Shown here: positions 2,901 through 36,045 of the stretch, piece after piece
Position numbering within the stretch: the stretch's first letter is position 1
Layout of the letters: the number at the start of each line of letters is the position of its first letter
Origin: an uncultured Eubacteriales bacterium
GTDB lineage: Bacteria; Bacillota; Clostridia; Oscillospirales; Acutalibacteraceae
Length of the DNA: 36,159 bases
NCBI GenBank assembly: GCA_900315815.1
Contig: ONAS01000009.1
Coordinates: 1 to 36,159, forward strand
Direction: 5' to 3'
Translations under genes and position numbers: made by a program
The notes under the pieces: generated by a model
The model's input: the letters and a program-made list of their open reading frames with translations, nothing else
Told to the model about the DNA's origin: nothing
The model's database searches: none

Positions 2901-3039
2901 AATGATTCTCCTAAAGAAATATGACCGTTTTGAAGAGTGAATGCCGTTCAAGACGGAGCGCTCCCCGTGTCAAAGGGCAGACGGCAGGGGAGGGGATCTC
3001 CGCGGCCGTTTTGCCCGAGCGATTCAATGGATAAAAAAG

Positions 3040-3200
3040 TATCCCACCTGACCGCAACAGTCGTTAGATAACCTGCCTACATAATGACAGGTGGGTGCCC
3101 GCCCTGCGGCTTTAGGCTCCCTTCGTCCAAAGGGTCTGGGAGGTCTGCACACCGCCGAAGGAGCTAAGCTCCCGATTTAAAAAGTGTAGGGTTATTTGTG
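3040..3200 (-). ncRNA. ssrS: Probable 6S RNA
   Basis: There is no ORF here, but the minus strand folds as a long imperfect rod. The outer stem is AACCCTAC (plus 3186-3193) with GTAG-GCA-GGTT (plus 3069-3080). The middle stem pairs CTTAG-CTCCTTCG with CGAAGGGAG-CCTAAAG, closed by a GC-rich apical region. The minus-strand segments GCGGTGTGCAGACC, GGGAGCCTAAAGCCGC and GGGCACCCACCTG resemble the conserved 3' half of 6S RNA (compare E. coli GAGAAGCCUUAAAACUGCG and CACCUUG). A T6 run (plus 3033-3038) follows CAGGTGGG, which could pair with CCCACCTG. 6S RNA mimics an open promoter and binds sigma-A RNA polymerase. Ends are approximate; the call rests on recall of the consensus. Confidence 0.65.
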
Positions 3201-3268
3201 ACCGATACGCGCGTCAGGCAGGATAGTGCCTGAGTTATTCAGTTTTTGCACCCGCTCGGGGCGATGCT

Positions 3269-29687: not shown

Positions 29688-29700
29688 CTACTTAACAGAT

Positions 29701-29724
29701 GGGTAGGTGCTGGAGCGCCTGCCC
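29701..29724 (+). promoter_or_regulatory. Stable hairpin in the cysE 5' leader
   Basis: GGGTAGGTGC (29701-29710) pairs along its whole length with GCGCCTGCCC (29715-29724) around the loop TGGA (10 bp, two G-U). It is not followed by a T-run, so it is not a terminator. It starts a few bases after the predicted transcript start and ends before the GGAGGG ribosome site, so it may protect the mRNA 5' end. Confidence 0.5.
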
Positions 29725-29746
29725 GATTGACGGAGGGAATGATACG

Positions 29747-30706
29747 ATGGCAGAGAATATTCAGCAGCGCATCAACGCGCTGACAGACGCCCTGATGGCG
29801 GATTACCAAGGCGGCAGGACCATTGACGAGATCAAGATGTTCGAGTATCCCGACAAGGAGATCGTCATCGATATCCTGGAAAAGATCAAGATCGTCGTCT
29901 ATCCGGGCTACTACAAAAACAGCAATTACCGCACCTATACGGTACGCAACAATATCGCCATCCTGCTGGAGGACATCATCTATAACCTGATCAAGCAGAC
30001 CTCGATCGTCCTGCGGTATTCCCCGGTCTATGAGGATTCCGACAGCGGCGCGATCGCACAGGCGGCTCAGCGCATCACCTTTGAGTTCCTGGAAAAGATC
30101 CCGAAGATCAGGGAGTACATCGATACGGATATCCAGGCGGCGTTCGACGGCGACCCTGCGGCGTACAACAAGGACGAGATCATCTGCACCTATCCGGGGC
30201 TGTACGCCATCTTCACCAGCCGCGTCGCGCATGAGCTGTATCTGCTCGGCGTTCCGCTGATCCCGCGCATCATGACCGAGCATGCCCACAGCATCACGGG
30301 GATCGATATCCACCCCGGCACCACCATCGGCAAGTATTTCTTCATCGATCACGGCACCGGCATCGTGATCGGCGAAACGACCGTCATCGGCGACAACGTC
30401 AAGATCTATCAGGGCGTGACTCTGGGCGCGCTGTCCACCAGAGGCGGTCAGAAGCTCAAAAACGTCAGGCGGCATCCCACCATCAGCGACAATGTGACGA
30501 TCTATTCCGGCGCGTCGATCCTCGGCGGGGAGACCGTCGTCGGCAAGAATGTCGTGGTCGGCGGCAACGCGTTCATCACCACCTCCATCCCCGAGGGCGC
30601 CCGCGTCAGCGTCAAAAGCCAGGAGCTGCTGTACAATTATGACGCAGGTCATCCGGTGGAGCGCAAGGAGATCGAGCCGGACGAATCGTGGTATTACAAT
30701 ATATAA
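29747..30706 (+). CDS. cysE: Serine O-acetyltransferase
   Basis: The start is the ATG at 29747, after CGGAGGG, giving 319 residues. An in-frame ATG at 29699 lies almost at the predicted transcript start and is not favoured. The N-terminal helical domain (about 1-180) is followed by the left-handed beta-helix of hexapeptide repeats (HSITGIDIHPGTTIG, FFIDHGTGIVIGETTVIG, LGALSTRGGQ, HPTISDNVTIYSGASILGGETVVG). The active-site His residues lie in DIHPG and IDHGTG. The enzyme acetylates serine to O-acetylserine for cysteine synthesis. It is longer than short EpsC-type enzymes. A C-S lyase gene follows after 21 bases and metQNI lies further downstream. Confidence 0.93.
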   Translation: MAENIQQRINALTDALMADYQGGRTIDEIKMFEYPDKEIVIDILEKIKIVVYPGYYKNSNYRTYTVRNNIAILLEDIIYNLIKQTSIVLRYSPVYEDSDSGAIAQAAQRITFEFLEKIPKIREYIDTDIQAAFDGDPAAYNKDEIICTYPGLYAIFTSRVAHELYLLGVPLIPRIMTEHAHSITGIDIHPGTTIGKYFFIDHGTGIVIGETTVIGDNVKIYQGVTLGALSTRGGQKLKNVRRHPTISDNVTIYSGASILGGETVVGKNVVVGGNAFITTSIPEGARVSVKSQELLYNYDAGHPVERKEIEPDESWYYNI

Positions 30707-30727
30707 GGATGAAACAGGAGAAGCGTC

Positions 30728-31879
30728 ATGTTTGATTTTGATACGGTATACGACAGAAGGATCCCCGGCGACATCAAGTACGAGACGATCGGCGGCACAG
30801 AGGATATCATCCCGATGTGGGTAGCGGATATGGATTTCAAAACCGCTCCCTGTGTGGAGGAGGCGGTGAAGGCGGTCGCCGCGCGGGGCATCTACGGTTA
30901 TCAGAGCGTGGATGCGGCGTATCGCCGTCTGGTGCGCGCGTGGTACGGCAGACGGTTTTCCTTTGAGATCGCGGACGAATGGATCGTGCCGTCGCCCGCG
31001 GTGATGTATTCCGCCGCGTGCGCGATCCGTGCGCTGACGAACGAGGGCGACGCGGTGCTGATTTTCGAGCCGGTCTACTATCCGTTCTCCAACGTTGTGA
31101 GGTCGAACCGCCGCAGGCTGATCGTATCCGAGCTGACCCGCGCCGACGGACGATATACGATCGACTTCGGCGATCTGGAACTCAAACTCACGGAGAACGA
31201 AGTGAAGGCAGTGCTGTTCTGCTCTCCGCACAACCCTGTCGGCAGGGTGTGGACGAGGGAAGAGCTGGAGCGCTTTGCGGATATCTGTCTGAAGCATCAT
31301 GTGTATATCATTTCCGACGAGATCCACTCCGATCTGGTCTACGCGCCGCACAGACATATCCCGATCGCGTCGCTGTCCGCGCGGATCGCCGCGCAGACCG
31401 TCACCTGCGCCGCGCCGACGAAAACCTTCAACCTTGCCGCGATCGAAGCGTCCAACATCATCATCGCGGACGAGGCGATCCGCACGGCGGTGCAGAAGGA
31501 GATGCGCGCAAGCTGTCAGATGGGGATCAACGCGTTCGGTATCGCCGCAACAAAGGCGGTCTATGCCGACGGGGAGCAGTGGCTCGACGAGCTTCTCAGC
31601 TATCTGGACGAAAGCAGGCGCATCCTGTGCGAAGCCTTTCCGCAGGGCGGGCGCGTCAGCGTCAGCGCGCCTGAGGGCACCTATCTCGCGTGGCTGGACT
31701 GCCGCGGGCTCGGCTTGTCCGACAACATGCTGTACAATCGGTTCCTGCTCACCGCGGGCGTCCGTTTGCACAAGGGCGGTACCTTCGGCGACAGCGGCAC
31801 GGGATTCATGCGGTTGAATTTCGCCTGTCCGCACAGCGTCCTGAGAGAAGCGATCCGCAGGATGAAAACCGTGCTGTAG
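30728..31879 (+). CDS. PatB/MalY-type PLP-dependent C-S lyase
   Basis: The 383-residue protein starts with the family hallmark FDFDTVYDRR, then MWVADMDFKTAP (about residues 28-39), the GIYGYQ segment, FCSPHNPVGRVWTREEL, ISDEIHSDLVY and the lysine-bearing APTKTFNLAAIEASNIII. MalY/PatB enzymes are aminotransferase-fold cystathionine beta-lyases that cleave C-S bonds in cystathionine or cysteine to release homocysteine or sulfide. The ribosome site is AGGAG at good spacing. Position between serine acetyltransferase and the methionine transporter supports a sulfur amino acid role. No clear terminator follows, so read-through into the metQ leader is possible. Confidence 0.9.
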   Translation: MFDFDTVYDRRIPGDIKYETIGGTEDIIPMWVADMDFKTAPCVEEAVKAVAARGIYGYQSVDAAYRRLVRAWYGRRFSFEIADEWIVPSPAVMYSAACAIRALTNEGDAVLIFEPVYYPFSNVVRSNRRRLIVSELTRADGRYTIDFGDLELKLTENEVKAVLFCSPHNPVGRVWTREELERFADICLKHHVYIISDEIHSDLVYAPHRHIPIASLSARIAAQTVTCAAPTKTFNLAAIEASNIIIADEAIRTAVQKEMRASCQMGINAFGIAATKAVYADGEQWLDELLSYLDESRRILCEAFPQGGRVSVSAPEGTYLAWLDCRGLGLSDNMLYNRFLLTAGVRLHKGGTFGDSGTGFMRLNFACPHSVLREAIRRMKTVL

Positions 31880-31953
31880 GCTGTTGTCATTGTCACGATT
31901 CCGACGCCGATTTGCGCAAAAGATTTGGCGGGAATGCCGAAATTCGGAAAAAT

Positions 31954-32057
31954 ACCAACCAACCTATTGACAAAGTAGGTAAATAGAGCTATAATGCGGT
32001 TGCAGTCGGATCCGGGAGAAACTTGCCACTTTTGCTTGACAAAGTAGGTTGGTTGGG
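31954..32057. repeat. Long inverted repeat flanking promoter P1
   Basis: CCAACCAACCTA (31955-31966) is the exact reverse complement of TAGGTTGGTTGG (32045-32056), the arms lying about 80 bases apart. The left arm abuts the P1 -35 and the right arm fills the P2 spacer. Each arm contains the ACCTA/TAGGT half-site seen at the serine acetyltransferase promoter. Confidence 0.75.
31967..31995 (+). promoter_or_regulatory. metQ operon promoter P1 (sigma-A)
   Basis: A perfect TTGACA (31967-31972), 17 bases and a perfect TATAAT (31990-31995). ACCTA (31962-31966) and TAGGT (31976-31980) flank the -35 as an inverted pair. Confidence 0.88.
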
Positions 32058-32065
32058 ATTATAAT
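32036..32065 (+). promoter_or_regulatory. metQ operon promoter P2 (sigma-A)
   Basis: A perfect TTGACA (32036-32041), 18 bases and a perfect TATAAT (32060-32065). TAGGTTGGTTGG (32045-32056) lies in the spacer. The transcript would start near 32072, eleven bases before the leader ORF ribosome site. Confidence 0.85.
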
Positions 32066-32098
32066 TCGATTGCAATCAAACGAAAGGAGAAGCTTGCC

Positions 32099-32188
32099 AT
32101 GACCGCTGCGATGATCACCGTGATGACGATGTGGATGTGCGGCATCATGTGCCGTGCTATGGCAAGCCGTGCCCTCATACAGCGTTGA
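32099..32188 (+). CDS. Met/Cys-rich attenuator leader peptide (29 aa)
   Basis: The ATG at 32099 has a full AAAGGAG site (32083-32089) nine bases upstream; TGA is at 32186-32188. Of 29 residues, seven are Met (positions 1, 5, 9, 11, 13, 17, 21), two are Cys (14, 18) and one is the single-codon Trp (12). The core reads MTMWMCGIMCRAM. The ORF ends inside one arm of a hairpin that competes with a downstream terminator, and the next structural gene is a methionine transporter lipoprotein. This is the layout of an amino acid attenuator peptide. It is too small for homology-based annotation. The function is inferred from codon content, translation signals, RNA structure and neighbours. Confidence 0.78.
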   Translation: MTAAMITVMTMWMCGIMCRAMASRALIQR

Positions 32189-32211
32189 ACTTTTCGGTGC
32201 TGTGGCGAGGG
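32172..32211 (+). promoter_or_regulatory. Candidate antiterminator hairpin of the met leader
   Basis: CCCTC (32172-32176) can pair with GAGGG (32207-32211) and ACAGC (32179-32183) with GCTGT (32199-32203). The left arm is covered by a ribosome reaching the leader stop codon. The right arm shares bases 32207-32211 with the terminator stem, so the two structures exclude each other. A separate 9-bp pairing, GCTTGCCAT (32092-32100) with ATGGCAAGC (32159-32167), brackets the leader ORF and covers its start codon. Confidence 0.6.
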
Positions 32212-32236
32212 GGCGTAATGCTCCCTTACTTTTTTT
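32207..32236 (+). terminator. Intrinsic terminator inside the met leader (attenuator)
   Basis: The stem GAGGGGGC (32207-32214) pairs with GCTCCCTT (32220-32227), with two G-U pairs and the loop GTAAT. Seven T residues follow at 32230-32236. It lies after the leader ORF and before metQ, so it must be bypassed for metQNI expression. Confidence 0.8.
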
Positions 32237-32252
32237 GTCAAAGGAGATTCGT

Positions 32253-32312
32253 ATGAATACCACAAGATTCCTGATAACCTCCAATCTGTACAGTAAGCGA
32301 ATGTGTCGTTGA
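32253..32312 (+). CDS. Second short leader ORF ending in Met-Cys-Arg (19 aa)
   Basis: The ATG at 32253 has a perfect AAAGGAG (32240-32246) six bases upstream, straight after the attenuator T-run. The product is MNTTRFLITSNLYSKRMCR, with adjacent ATG and TGT codons just before the final Arg and stop. It would be translated only when transcription passes the attenuator. It could be a second sulfur-sensing leader peptide, a ribosome-loading ORF, or chance. Short peptides ending in Cys-Arg precede sulfur genes in Actinobacteria, which is only an analogy. Confidence 0.5.
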   Translation: MNTTRFLITSNLYSKRMCR

Positions 32313-32331
32313 TTGTCAAAATAAGTCATGA

Positions 32332-32364
32332 AAGCCTTTATAGAAACCAAGCCTTTATAGAAAC
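32332..32364 (+). repeat. Tandem 16-bp direct repeat before metQ
   Basis: AAGCCTTTATAGAAAC occurs at 32332-32347 and again at 32349-32364, a 17-base period. It lies between the second leader ORF and the metQ ribosome site. It may be a slippage product or a paired protein-binding site. Confidence 0.85.
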
Positions 32365-32404
32365 AATACTTATACCGACAAATCAACTCAAAGGAGAAAT
32401 ACCA

Positions 32405-33286
32405 ATGAAAAAGCTTATTTCCGCAGTACTGGTTATTGCACTCGCACTCACATCCGTGTTCGCGCTTTCCGCCTGCTCCAAGGAAGAGAGCAAGGACGGC
32501 GGCGACAAGGGCGCTTCCTCCGTCACCATCGCGATCCCGAACGACACCACCAACGAAGCACGCGCGCTGCTGCTTCTGCAGGAGCTCGGCTTCATCAAGC
32601 TGAAGTCCGACGCGGGCATCACCGCGACCGTCCGTGATATCGAGGACAATCCGAAGAACATCGAGTTCGCGGAGATCGAGGCGGCTCAGCTTCCCTCCGC
32701 TCTGCAGGATTATGACTATGCGGTCATCAACTCCAACTACGCGATCGACGCGGGCATCAACCCGGTCAAGGATTCGCTGGGCATCGAGGGTTCTTCCTCC
32801 GCTTACGTCAACATCATCGCCGTCAAGAACGGCAACGAGAACGAGCCGAAGATCAAGGCGCTGGTAGCCGCGACCGAATCCAAGAAGGTCGTTGACTTCA
32901 TCAACGAGAAGTATGAGGGCGCGGTCGTCCCCGCGGTCGACAACCCCACCGACGGCTTTGATCCCTCCATCGATTACGATGCGCTCAAGGGCACTACCAT
33001 CACCGTAGCGGCTTCTCCGACGCCGCATGCGGAGATCCTCGCGATCGTCAAGGACATCCTTGCCGAGAAGGATATCAAGCTCGAGGTCACCGAGTTCACC
33101 GATTACGTCCAGCCGAACCTGGTCGTAGACAACGGCGAGCTTGACGCGAACTACTTCCAGCATGTTCCGTATCTGGACGACTTCAACGCCGAGAACAACA
33201 CCGATATCGTATCCGCGGCAGGCATCCATGTCGAGCCGATCGGTCTGTACGGCGGCAAGCAGAGCAGCCTTGACGCTCTGAAATAA
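32405..33286 (+). CDS. metQ: Methionine ABC transporter substrate-binding lipoprotein
   Basis: The start is the ATG at 32405, after AAAGGAG, giving 293 residues. A lipoprotein signal (about 1-23) ends in the lipobox LSAC with Cys24, so it is anchored to the outer face of the membrane. The NlpA/MetQ fold has two halves: VTIAIPNDTTNEARALLLLQELGFIKLK, then the second lobe with TITVAASPTPHAEILAIVKDIL and VQPNLVVDNGELDANYFQHVPYLDDF. The order is unusual: family members normally start with the TPHAEIL lobe and end with PNDxTNxxRAL. Here the NDTTNEARAL segment is N-terminal, suggesting a circular permutation. It binds methionine or its D-isomer/sulfoxide for MetNI. Confidence 0.92.
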   Translation: MKKLISAVLVIALALTSVFALSACSKEESKDGGDKGASSVTIAIPNDTTNEARALLLLQELGFIKLKSDAGITATVRDIEDNPKNIEFAEIEAAQLPSALQDYDYAVINSNYAIDAGINPVKDSLGIEGSSSAYVNIIAVKNGNENEPKIKALVAATESKKVVDFINEKYEGAVVPAVDNPTDGFDPSIDYDALKGTTITVAASPTPHAEILAIVKDILAEKDIKLEVTEFTDYVQPNLVVDNGELDANYFQHVPYLDDFNAENNTDIVSAAGIHVEPIGLYGGKQSSLDALK

Positions 33287-33299
33287 TCATCGTTAGCTT

Positions 33300-33325
33300 A
33301 TGCACCGAGCAGCTGCCCGGTGCAT
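33300..33325 (+). promoter_or_regulatory. Intercistronic hairpin between metQ and metN
   Basis: A perfect 8-bp stem (ATGCACCG at 33300-33307 with CGGTGCAT at 33318-33325) is followed by a weak T-rich stretch. It probably gives partial termination or protects the metQ mRNA 3' end, making binding protein more abundant than the ATPase and permease. Confidence 0.6.
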
Positions 33326-33351
33326 CGCTGTTTGTTTGAAGGAACGATCAT

Positions 33352-34347
33352 ATGATAGAACTCAGAAATTTATCCAAAACCTTTCAGACGGCCGACGCGA
33401 CTGTTGAGGCGCTGAAAAATGTCAGCATCACCATCGGCGACGGTGATATCTTCGGCATCATCGGCATGTCCGGCGCCGGAAAATCGACCCTCGTGCGCTG
33501 TATCAATATGCTGGAGCGTCCCGACGAGGGCGCAGTGCTGATCGACGGCGTGGACGTCGGCGGGCTGAAGAACAAGGAGCTGCGCGCCATCCGCCGCGAG
33601 GTGACGATGATCTTCCAGGGCTTCAACCTGCTCATGCAGCGCACCTGCCTGAAGAACGTCATGTTCCCGCTGGAGCTGGAGGGCGTCAAAAAGGCTGACG
33701 CGAAAAAGCGCGCGATGGAGCTGCTGGAAACGGTCGGGCTCCCCGACAAGGCGAACGCCTATCCCGCGCAGCTTTCCGGCGGTCAGCAGCAGCGCGTCGC
33801 GATCGCGAGAGCGCTGGCGACCAACCCGAAGGTACTGCTGTGCGACGAGGCGACCTCCGCGCTCGACCCCAAGACCTCCCACGCGATCCTCAACCTGATC
33901 CGCGAGATCAATGAGAAGCTGGGCATCACCGTGATCATCATCACGCACCAGATGAGCGTCATCGAAGAGGTCTGCAATCATGTCGCGATCCTGGACCACG
34001 GCGTCGTCGCCGAGCAGGGCCGCGTCGTCGATATCTTCACACATCCCAAGAGCAAGGCGGCAAAGCATCTTGTGTTCCCCGAGGGCGAGCAGGAGATCCT
34101 TGTCGAAAACGCCGACTATCGCCTGCGCGTGATCTTCGGCGGCGCTAAGGCGGCAGGCACGCCGCTGATCGCCCAGCTGGCTAAGGAAAAGGGGATCGAG
34201 GCGAATATCCTCGGCGCCTCCACCAAGGCTGTCGGCGACAAGGCGTACGGCAATATGCTGCTCTCGTTTGCCGATGAGGACAGCAAGGACCGGGCGGTCG
34301 CGTTCCTGTCGGCGATCGAGGATATCATTGTTGAGGAGGCGGAATAA
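33352..34347 (+). CDS. metN: Methionine ABC transporter ATP-binding protein
   Basis: The 331-residue protein has Walker A GMSGAGKST (38-46), the Q-loop FQGFNLL, signature LSGGQQQRVAIARAL (about 142-156), Walker B VLLCDEATSALD and the H-loop ITHQMSV. The C-terminal NIL domain (about 255-331, YRLRVIFGGAKAAGTPLIAQLAKEKGIEANILGAS) is specific to MetN. In known MetN proteins it binds methionine and shuts transport off when the cell is full. It drives import through MetI with methionine delivered by MetQ. The last base of its stop is the first base of metI. Confidence 0.95.
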   Translation: MIELRNLSKTFQTADATVEALKNVSITIGDGDIFGIIGMSGAGKSTLVRCINMLERPDEGAVLIDGVDVGGLKNKELRAIRREVTMIFQGFNLLMQRTCLKNVMFPLELEGVKKADAKKRAMELLETVGLPDKANAYPAQLSGGQQQRVAIARALATNPKVLLCDEATSALDPKTSHAILNLIREINEKLGITVIIITHQMSVIEEVCNHVAILDHGVVAEQGRVVDIFTHPKSKAAKHLVFPEGEQEILVENADYRLRVIFGGAKAAGTPLIAQLAKEKGIEANILGASTKAVGDKAYGNMLLSFADEDSKDRAVAFLSAIEDIIVEEAE

Positions 34348-35048
34348 TGGCTGAGTTTTTTGCATCGAAGGATTGGCTGGATACGATCGATATCGTCAAG
34401 ACCGAGGTCCCTCTGGCGATCTGGGAGACGGTATACGTCACGCTGATCTCCACGCTGATCGCGCTGGCGATCGGACTTCCGCTGGGCGTTCTGCTCGCGG
34501 TCGGCGATAAGGACGGCATCATCCCGCTGCCCGCTCCGCTGAGACATTTTCTGAACATCCTGATCAACCTGCTGCGTTCGGTACCGTTTCTGATCCTGAT
34601 CGTCGTGGTCGCTCCGCTGACGCGTGTGATCATCGGCAAGGCGTTCGGTACCGCTGCGTCCATCGTACCGCTGGTGATCGCGGCGTTCCCGTTCATCGCG
34701 CGTCTGGTGGAAAGCTCCGTCAGGGAGGTCAACCCCAATATCGTGGAGATGGCACAGAGCACCGGCGCGTCGCCCCTGCAGATCATCGTCAAGGTGCTGA
34801 TCCCCGAAAGCGTCCCCGGTCTGATCTCCAATATCACGATCGCGCTGACCACGATCCTCGGCTATACCGCGATGAGCGGCGCTATCGGCGGCGGCGGTCT
34901 GGGCAAGCTGGCGATCAACTACGGCTACTATCGCTACAAGTATCTCGTCATGATCATCACGGTCATCCTGCTGATCATCCTTGTCCAGATCTTCCAGACG
35001 ATCGGCACCAAGCTGTCCGTCGCGTCGGACAAGCGGCTGAAAAAATAA
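34347..35048 (+). CDS. metI: Methionine ABC transporter permease
   Basis: The 233-residue membrane protein has five or six helices. It has the MetI start ETVYVTLISTLIALAIGLPLGVLLAV and the ABC-permease coupling loop ESSVREVNPNIVEMAQSTGASPLQIIVKVLIPESVPGL, followed by GYTAMSGAIGGGGLGKLAINYGYYRYK. It forms the channel dimer of the MetNI importer. Its ATG overlaps the metN stop (TAATG), so subunits are coupled. A terminator lies 17 bases after its stop. Confidence 0.95.
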   Translation: MAEFFASKDWLDTIDIVKTEVPLAIWETVYVTLISTLIALAIGLPLGVLLAVGDKDGIIPLPAPLRHFLNILINLLRSVPFLILIVVVAPLTRVIIGKAFGTAASIVPLVIAAFPFIARLVESSVREVNPNIVEMAQSTGASPLQIIVKVLIPESVPGLISNITIALTTILGYTAMSGAIGGGGLGKLAINYGYYRYKYLVMIITVILLIILVQIFQTIGTKLSVASDKRLKK

Positions 35049-35250: not shown

Positions 35251-36045
35251 ATGATGAAAAAGAAACTGATCGTGATCGGCTGTGCGTGCGTCGTGCTGTT
35301 GATCACGCTGATTATCGTAAGCGTCAATACCGTAAAGAGCTTCAAAGAGGACAAGCAAGAGAATACCGCGACCGAGGCGACCGAGGCGCCGACCGAACAG
35401 CCCAAGCAGACGAAGTATATGATCGAGGGCGCGGAGGATAAGGTCATCCCTCAGACAGAGCTGAAGGCAGGGTGCGAGACCTACGCCTGCACCATGCTGA
35501 TGAACATCCTGGGCTTTGATCTGGATGAATTCACCTTTGCCGACAATTATCTCGACTGCCACTATGTCTATGAGGACGAGGAGACCGGCTATATGGAGGG
35601 TCCGGATATGTACAGCGCGTTCGCGGGGACCGCGTACGCGGGATGGGGCGTATACGCGCCGTCCATGGCAAAGAGCATGAACCGCTATCTCAGCGATCAG
35701 AAATCCGAGCTGAAGGCGTACAACTATGAGAACATCCCCGTATCGACCCTGTGCGAGGAGTACACGCAGAACGGTATCCCCGTCATGATCTGGGCGACGA
35801 CGGATATGCAGGAGCCGTATGTTTTCAATACATGGACGGTCAACTACGTCGATGAGAACGCCAAGACCGAGATCGGCGATTCCTTCAACTGGTACGCGCA
35901 CGAGCATTGTCTGGTGCTGGTCGGTTTCGATGACAAGGAATACTATTTCTGCGATTCCGCGGCGGGCGCTGTTTCACATTTCTCAAAGGAGCTTGTCGAA
36001 AAGCGCTATGAGCAGCTGGGCTCGCAGTGCATCGTGGTAAAATAA
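35251..36045 (+). CDS. Extracytoplasmic C39-like cysteine peptidase
   Basis: The 264-residue protein begins MMKKK, after AGGCGG, with a hydrophobic signal/anchor (about 5-25) and a Thr/Glu/Pro-rich linker (about 36-54). The catalytic domain has the Peptidase_C39_2 pattern: catalytic Cys75 in KAGCETYACTMLMNILG, the central WGVYAPSMAKSMNRYL, GIPVMIWATT, and His219 in HEHCLVLVGFDD, followed by YYFCDS with Asp235. Such proteins act outside the membrane. They are often called bacteriocin-processing-like, but no bacteriocin or peptide transporter gene is near, and substrates are unknown. It has its own promoter and stands alone. Confidence 0.83.
   Translation: MMKKKLIVIGCACVVLLITLIIVSVNTVKSFKEDKQENTATEATEAPTEQPKQTKYMIEGAEDKVIPQTELKAGCETYACTMLMNILGFDLDEFTFADNYLDCHYVYEDEETGYMEGPDMYSAFAGTAYAGWGVYAPSMAKSMNRYLSDQKSELKAYNYENIPVSTLCEEYTQNGIPVMIWATTDMQEPYVFNTWTVNYVDENAKTEIGDSFNWYAHEHCLVLVGFDDKEYYFCDSAAGAVSHFSKELVEKRYEQLGSQCIVVK

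Follow-up and report, generated by a model that had tools for sequence, protein, structure and literature searches.

The question raised by this locus is what controls metQNI in a member of the Clostridia, where methionine genes are usually regulated by riboswitches or T-boxes. We refer to the whole 36,159-nucleotide stretch of DNA analysed here as the window. In silico, the region before metQ contains a short open reading frame (ORF1) with a Shine-Dalgarno sequence (SD), two mutually exclusive RNA pairings, and an enrichment in Met and Cys codons, and leaders of this kind are positioned before sulfur amino-acid genes in several families. The best explanation, in which we have considerable confidence, is a ribosome-mediated transcription attenuator that senses the charging of Met-tRNA (and Cys-tRNA) and controls metQNI. 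An initial annotation of this DNA had already interpreted it as a leader-peptide attenuator; our analysis supports that interpretation, with the comparative evidence carrying the case.

The metQNI locus

Three transporter genes follow the leader at 32405-35048, as initially annotated, and a lyase gene lies upstream of it:

32405-33286, + strand, metQ, methionine-binding lipoprotein, circularly permuted, Lipoprotein_9
33352-34347, + strand, metN, ABC ATPase with a NIL domain
34347-35048, + strand, metI, ABC permease
30728-31879, PatB-type C-S lyase gene upstream of the leader (TIGR04350, 430 bits; cut-off 340)

Scores of the window proteins against the NCBIfam models of MetQ, MetN, and MetI fall short of the curated cut-offs, so the names given here stand for family-level similarity together with gene order and the NIL domain. 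MetQ residues 198-292 match the N-terminal half (4-98) of PDB chain 4k3f, while residues 38-177 match its C-terminal half (100-239). In the MetQ proteins encoded behind the leaders L033, L165, L166, and L168, Lipoprotein_9 is split into two stretches, of which the C-terminal one leads. The lyase gene is part of a sulfur gene cluster at 29699-31879, in which a hexapeptide-repeat protein (CysE-like by eye) adjoins the PatB-family C-S lyase. Downstream of metI, a Peptidase_C39-like protein is encoded at 35251-36045, and a 6S RNA (70.2 bits) is found on the minus strand at 3037-3227.

Leader ORF1 and its promoters

The leader upstream of metQ begins with the following elements:

31962-31995 (promoter match 31967-31995), + strand, upstream promoter TTGACA-17-TATAAT, 12/12 sigma-70 match, overlapping ACCTATTGACAAAGTAGGT
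32036-32065, + strand, downstream promoter TTGACA-18-TATAAT, 12/12 sigma-70 match, with the second TTGACAAAGTAGGT, from a pattern match
32083-32089, + strand, SD AAAGGAG of ORF1, read from the sequence, with a similar SD in relatives
32099-32188, + strand, leader ORF1, 29 codons, 7 Met (start included) and 2 Cys, from the sequence, homologues, and conservation

The features first annotated for ORF1, namely 29 codons, AAAGGAG, seven ATG codons (start included), and two TGC codons, are all present, and the encoded 29-aa peptide is MTAAMITVMTMWMCGIMCRAMASRALIQR. Met or Cys accounts for 8 of the 28 non-start codons (binomial P(>=8) = 4e-6, with the Met+Cys frequency of six window genes as background). 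Of all start-to-stop frames in the window that are 15-50 aa long (853, with each nested start taken as a separate frame), none exceeds this count. One longer frame, without an SD, ties with ORF1 at 8, and among the 88 short window frames with an SD the runner-up has 7. ORF1 has a trait of leader-peptide attenuators, being a short ORF with an SD that is enriched in codons of the regulated amino acid, and it probably lets the ribosome sense a Met/Cys shortage and decide the transcription of metQNI.

An operator-like inverted repeat, ACCTATTGACAAAGTAGGT, is seen at 31962-31980 and 32036-32049, where it overlaps the promoters; in the second copy the left half is missing. TTGACAAAGTAGGT also precedes both other leaders of the same genome and those of most relatives, and sites similar to ACCTATTGACAAAGTAGGT precede metY and apparent other sulfur genes within the family. 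The repeat is a likely site of some regulator.

Searches for known RNA sensors

The ORF could be incidental if the sensor were a tRNA- or metabolite-sensing RNA, such as a T-box, an S-box, or an unknown riboswitch. T-boxes do exist in this genome, where the covariance model gives 7 matches, 4 of them over the cut-off, but all are on other contigs and none is at the locus. The SAM-I (S-box) model has no match at the locus or in the whole genome; the other SAM classes were searched at this locus only. No Rfam model matches 31880-32420 at E<=1, and the two paralogous leaders of the genome have no Rfam match at gathering score. The initial annotation had seen neither S-box nor T-box signatures, which these searches bear out, and on these Rfam searches an S-box, T-box, or other Rfam RNA is rejected for this locus. 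A T-box does precede a metQ relative in family f14 (L051, at 787-1053, 87 bits, E 6.5e-18); it falls below the gathering score of 93, and a search at that score returns nothing for L051. The occurrence in f14 of this T-box beside a leader ORF at another locus (L166) suggests swaps between sensors. Relatives share the reading frame, the SD, and the Met/Cys codons, which argues against an incidental ORF, and we consider an RNA sensor of this sort extremely improbable here.

Alternative hairpins in the leader

As leader-peptide attenuators require, the window has an intrinsic terminator between ORF1 and the structural genes, in addition to a hairpin that competes with it:

32168-32189 with 32193-32215, + strand, antiterminator hairpin (segment 2:3), from folding, a shuffle test, and pair counts in close relatives
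32207-32214 with 32220-32227, + strand, intrinsic terminator (segment 3:4), with T tract 32230-32236 (T7), from a hairpin search, folding, and pair counts

The terminator is found exactly where it was first annotated. The antiterminator, originally placed at 32172-32183 with 32199-32211, is confirmed and proves to be longer. Its segment (32160-32219) folds at -26.7 kcal/mol (z -3.1), with 0 of 200 shuffles equally stable, and the gain from antiterminator pairing is significant against dinucleotide shuffles (p 0.03), while a synonymous-codon test finds no excess complementarity in the window (p 0.39). For the leader in full (32072-32240), none of 200 shuffles folds as well (z -3.6). Folding of this region had been suggested initially as a check for two competing states, and these do appear: the MFE structure is the terminator form and the centroid is the antiterminator form, 0.2 kcal/mol apart.

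Across the leaders, the terminator 5' arm pairs with upstream RNA in 16 of 16 transcripts folded as truncated (by eye). The terminator detector gave a hairpin for 17 of 18 leaders; that of L163 was wrong and was set by hand, and the one it missed, in L032, is seen in the by-eye folds. Antiterminator gain over dinucleotide shuffles reaches p<0.05 in 8 of 17 loci, and the 13 less redundant loci, which are partly non-independent, combine to a Stouffer z of -5.5 and a Fisher p of 2e-6. Pairing is supported individually in the distant leaders L166, L127, and L128. Four leaders (L033, L049, L163, and L164) have gains at shuffle level (z +0.2, 0.0, +0.1, and +0.8, respectively) and form a subclass in which the stop codon is far downstream of the candidate arm (TCTCC) and is itself spanned by a different hairpin, e.g. 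CCGCC/GGCGG. When folding begins from another start point, the MFE structures of L049, L164, and L169 lack the antiterminator.

In most leaders of the genus, Arg-Tyr-Ala-Leu codons (CGTTATGCTC) pair with GAGCGTAAYG. This genus pairing is made by 95.6% of cells, compared with at most 68% when the arms are slid 1-3 columns, and one two-sided compensatory change (U-A to C-G) occurs in the window's own antiterminator. A pair-count shuffle control in close relatives is not significant (151/500), and a synonymous-codon null for the antiterminator gives p<0.05 only in L032 and L041 of 15 leaders. A protector hairpin like that of trp is present in the metQ leaders of the genus and is not general (78% of cells paired). 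The competition between antiterminator and terminator that had been proposed for the window is kept in close relatives; it has support in several distant ones, and not in all.

The bare terminator hairpin of the window is unremarkable (1 found versus 1.6 expected in shuffles; fold z -1.3), which fits a reading in which the hairpin is a common, unregulated partial terminator and ORF1 encodes a Met/Cys-rich peptide with its own function, such as metal or thiol binding. That the peptide is short, rich in Cys and Met, and conserved agrees with this as well. The examined leaders, however, sit between promoter and terminator and before sulfur amino-acid or amino-acid transport genes, the distal ORF codons pair with the terminator arm in close relatives, and the ends of the peptides vary. 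We regard a peptide with its own function as very improbable.

Distribution of related leaders

The same genome has two paralogous leaders, whose peptides are 52% and 45% identical to that of the window. One (C65) lies before a second metQ, downstream of an enzyme of Cys/Met metabolism, and the other (C99) before the permeases of a polar amino-acid ABC operon, for which the best models include those of ectoine, cystine, arginine, and glutamine systems, each an equivalog model scoring below cut-off. At L094, in another genome of the genus, four units follow one another: an ABC operon, the Cys/Met enzyme, a leader, and metQNI.

A search with the MetQ protein, which is blind to leaders, matched 14 of 59 genomes. 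The initial annotation had suggested looking for the short ORF at homologous metQ loci, and the outcome is mixed, for the most part in favor of the ORF. There are nine same-genus loci, including two of the window's own genome, with MetQ at least 71% identical. Six have a Met/Cys ORF1 and a terminator (the window, C65, L044, L045, L046, and L049), and three are without them: L047 and L048 have only a second short ORF, ORF2, described below, and L050 has neither ORF. Among more distant metQ loci, L053 has ORF2 without ORF1, and L051 has the T-box instead. Further leaders, spread over five families, precede metQ, metY, or an ABC operon for amino acids.

Several searches contributed to this distribution. 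Combining the operator with a Met-Cys-Gly pattern in genome contigs gave 17 stretches, 12 of which are leaders (several with the same sequence as loci found later), and the other 5 look like chance matches. A genus profile run on 100 same-genus genomes gave 18 matches at E<=1.3e-9, spread over 10 of the genomes (the own genome among these), and missed the genome of L049. The profile search of 398 family genomes gave 43 with E<=1, of which only L127 and L128, located before metY in two other genera, were accepted besides the own genome; loci were returned for 30 matches, and 29 of these (L127-L155) were checked by script for the operator and four were read. At the level of the order, the pattern MMxMCM(C/W) has 7 matches in 6 of 375 genomes and 0 in a reversed control, a low rate that is due in part to the strictness of the pattern. 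All 7 are short ORFs with an SD, before metQ (4) or metY (3), in families f14, f16, f19, and f21, and each is followed by a hairpin and a T-rich stretch, weak in L163 and L169. L033 and L167 have the same peptide and are probably from the same organism. Five metY genes were compared with NCBIfam, four of which score above the TIGR01326 cut-off and one, at L163 (a 319-aa frame), below it.

Searches with DNA had a shorter reach. The window leader found only the own genome's three copies among 150 family genomes. The C99 leader matched 7 of 150, and its matches outside the own genome, five short promoter/operator matches and one apparently inside a coding sequence, were rejected, none being a leader ORF. 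The exact operator is found in 8 of 300 family genomes, where part of the newly found loci were inspected.

The presence of leaders before transport and synthesis genes in five families (f1, f14, f16, f19, and f21) predicts a Met/Cys starvation regulon in anaerobes that include rumen and gut species.

Met and Cys codons as the probable signal

In the 18 distinct leaders, 188 of 605 non-start codons encode Met or Cys, and in the six leaders chosen without a Met/Cys pattern or profile the count is 59 of 188. Pairwise comparison of the 18 leaders aligns Met/Cys with Met/Cys in 69% of cases, versus 27% identity for other residues, a difference that is partly built in because many of the leaders were found by Met/Cys patterns or profiles. 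For the six found by whole-leader DNA or MetQ, the corresponding values are 69% and 47%.

The balance between the two amino acids changes with the gene that follows. Within the genus, leaders before metQ contain 7-9 Met, counting the start, and 2-3 Cys; for those before the ABC operon the numbers are 5-6 and 5-7, respectively, save for the shortened copy L031 with 4 of each. L030, which has the frame of a metQ leader and lies before an ABC permease, has 5 Cys. In these few independent cases, a Met:Cys content that shifts with the controlled gene speaks for codon-specific sensing. The initial annotation had named Met (or Cys) as the signal; Met stands, and since the ABC-operon copies are richer in Cys, Met and Cys together describe the signal better.

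These comparisons also bear on whether ORF1 might encode an arrest peptide, in which the nascent chain rather than empty tRNAs would stall the ribosome in response to, say, SAM, Met, or Cys, with the same downstream switch. A core shared between families extends beyond Met and Cys (MMxMCM, then W-T-C or C-G, then xMC), with G, R, and A recurring, and in the six leaders not chosen by pattern the other residues show fairly good retention too (47%). Against this, Met/Cys positions are kept more than others (with the selection bias described above), the Met:Cys ratio varies with the controlled gene, and L166 and L168 have little in common beyond the Met/Cys cluster. We therefore think an arrest peptide unlikely, and favor codon-specific attenuation.

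Proposed mechanism and relation to known attenuators

We infer translation of ORF1, stalling and its amino-acid cause, and termination and its relief as follows. Transcription would start at one or both promoters, and a ribosome would translate ORF1. With Met and Cys plentiful, the ribosome would reach the stop codon (32186-32188) and cover the antiterminator 5' arm, the terminator would form, and RNA polymerase would stop near 32236. Under a shortage of charged Met-tRNA or Cys-tRNA, the ribosome would be expected to stall in the Met/Cys cluster (codons 5-21), leaving the antiterminator 5' arm free to pair with the terminator 5' arm and allowing read-through into metQNI.

Classical leader-peptide attenuators are those of the proteobacterial trp, his, thr, leu, ilv, and phe genes. 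The window shares with them a short ORF rich in codons for the pathway's amino acid, alternative antiterminator and terminator hairpins, and a stop codon placed so that a ribosome would block the antiterminator. It differs in its proposed Met/Cys read-out, its clostridial host, the proposed control of a transporter, a second leader ORF after the terminator, and the location inside the ORF of the arm that a ribosome would block. The leader appears to work like these systems and we file it with them, a class assignment made from sequence and with the antiterminator unsupported in part of the family.

Cysteine leader peptides of Actinobacteria were reportedly the subject of work by Canestrari in 2020. 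The available text of Seliverstov 2005 (PMC1262725) places such peptides before cys operons, sees no conserved RNA structure before methionine operons, and describes no Met leader. The actinobacterial Cys leaders resemble the window in having a short ORF with Cys codons before sulfur genes, and resemble ORF2 in lacking a conserved terminator hairpin; they differ from the window in that no Met leader appears in that text. Among Firmicutes, histidine leader peptides in Bacilli are covered in the accessible portion of Naville and Gautheret 2010 (PMC2965389), which states that, apart from ermC, leader-peptide control was previously unshown outside Proteobacteria and Actinobacteria, and excerpts of PMC5794164 describe branched-chain leader peptides in Staphylococcus aureus. 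As far as these excerpts go, both are leader-peptide control in Firmicutes, as in the window, with other amino acids and genes. Parts of a further paper (PMC13236596) were drawn on for comparison and novelty. Methionine-reading leader-peptide attenuation was not found among the matches listed for the literature searched, which was mostly without subscription papers and is weak evidence of absence.

A second leader ORF

Between the terminator and metQ lies a second conserved short ORF, which the initial annotation overlooked:

32253-32312, + strand, leader ORF2 MNTTRFLITSNLYSKRMCR, after the terminator, with SD AAAGGAG at 32240-32246 and CGA-ATG-TGT at 32298-32306
32308-32317 with 32377-32387, + strand, predicted stem between the ORF2 stop region and the nucleotides immediately preceding the metQ SD, from a fold of 32240-32420 (z only -1.2)
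32390-32396, + strand, metQ SD

The ORF2 family core, N-[FLY]-[RYS]-x-x-R-M, is found across the class before metY and metQ. The pattern F-R-x-G-R-M-C has 21 matches in 391 class genomes, one per genome in 21, and 13 in a reversed control, so that single matches mean little. Thirteen of the 21 are short ORFs directly before metY (a label that here rests on the protein start), all with CGA. The other 8, not directly before metY, were dropped; L107 among them has CGA, apparently inside a gene.

All 28 ORF2 loci use CGA for the Arg that precedes Met (Thr in L033), with all six Arg codons allowed, some of these loci being close kin. This count represents 28 of 29 loci, L032 having been missed by the script. 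In the same 28 loci, the codon three earlier is CGT in 8, AGA in 5, AGG in 5, CGA in 4, TAC in 3, CGG in 2, and CGC in 1. ORF2 is a conserved, unnamed short ORF whose codon-level constraint asks for an explanation.

One explanation is that two serial leader peptides read sulfur amino acids, in which ORF1 would gate transcription and ORF2 (core N-F-R-x-G-R-M, with CGA-AUG and then often Cys) would gate translation in the manner of an ermC-type translational attenuator, base-pairing to the SD of the downstream gene and releasing it when a ribosome stalls at Arg-Met-Cys. The constancy of CGA would then make that codon, or those bases, part of the sensor. We hold this second gate tentatively and give it less than an even chance. 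At several metY loci the N-F-R-F-G codons complement the metY SD region. Over the 28 loci, the probability that the SD is paired to ORF2 averages 0.54, versus 0.37 with synonymous codons (Wilcoxon p 0.001), and it is 0.00 in L012, L033, L110, and L111. The window itself has 0.46 versus 0.37, which is not significant (p 0.37); in these codon and SD tests a TTG lying six codons ahead of the ATG served as the start of its ORF2. Tandem leader ORFs, mgtM and mgtP, are known from the Salmonella mgtCBR mRNA, where the signals in the available text of PMC3641672 are ATP and proline, both acting on transcription. Going by that text, two short ORFs in one leader, one of which senses an amino acid, are common to both systems, whereas in the window Met/Cys would be the subject of both ORFs, and translation the step that ORF2 controls. 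In both the window and C65, the predicted partner of the ORF2 end is the stretch immediately ahead of the metQ SD, with different sequences forming the stem.
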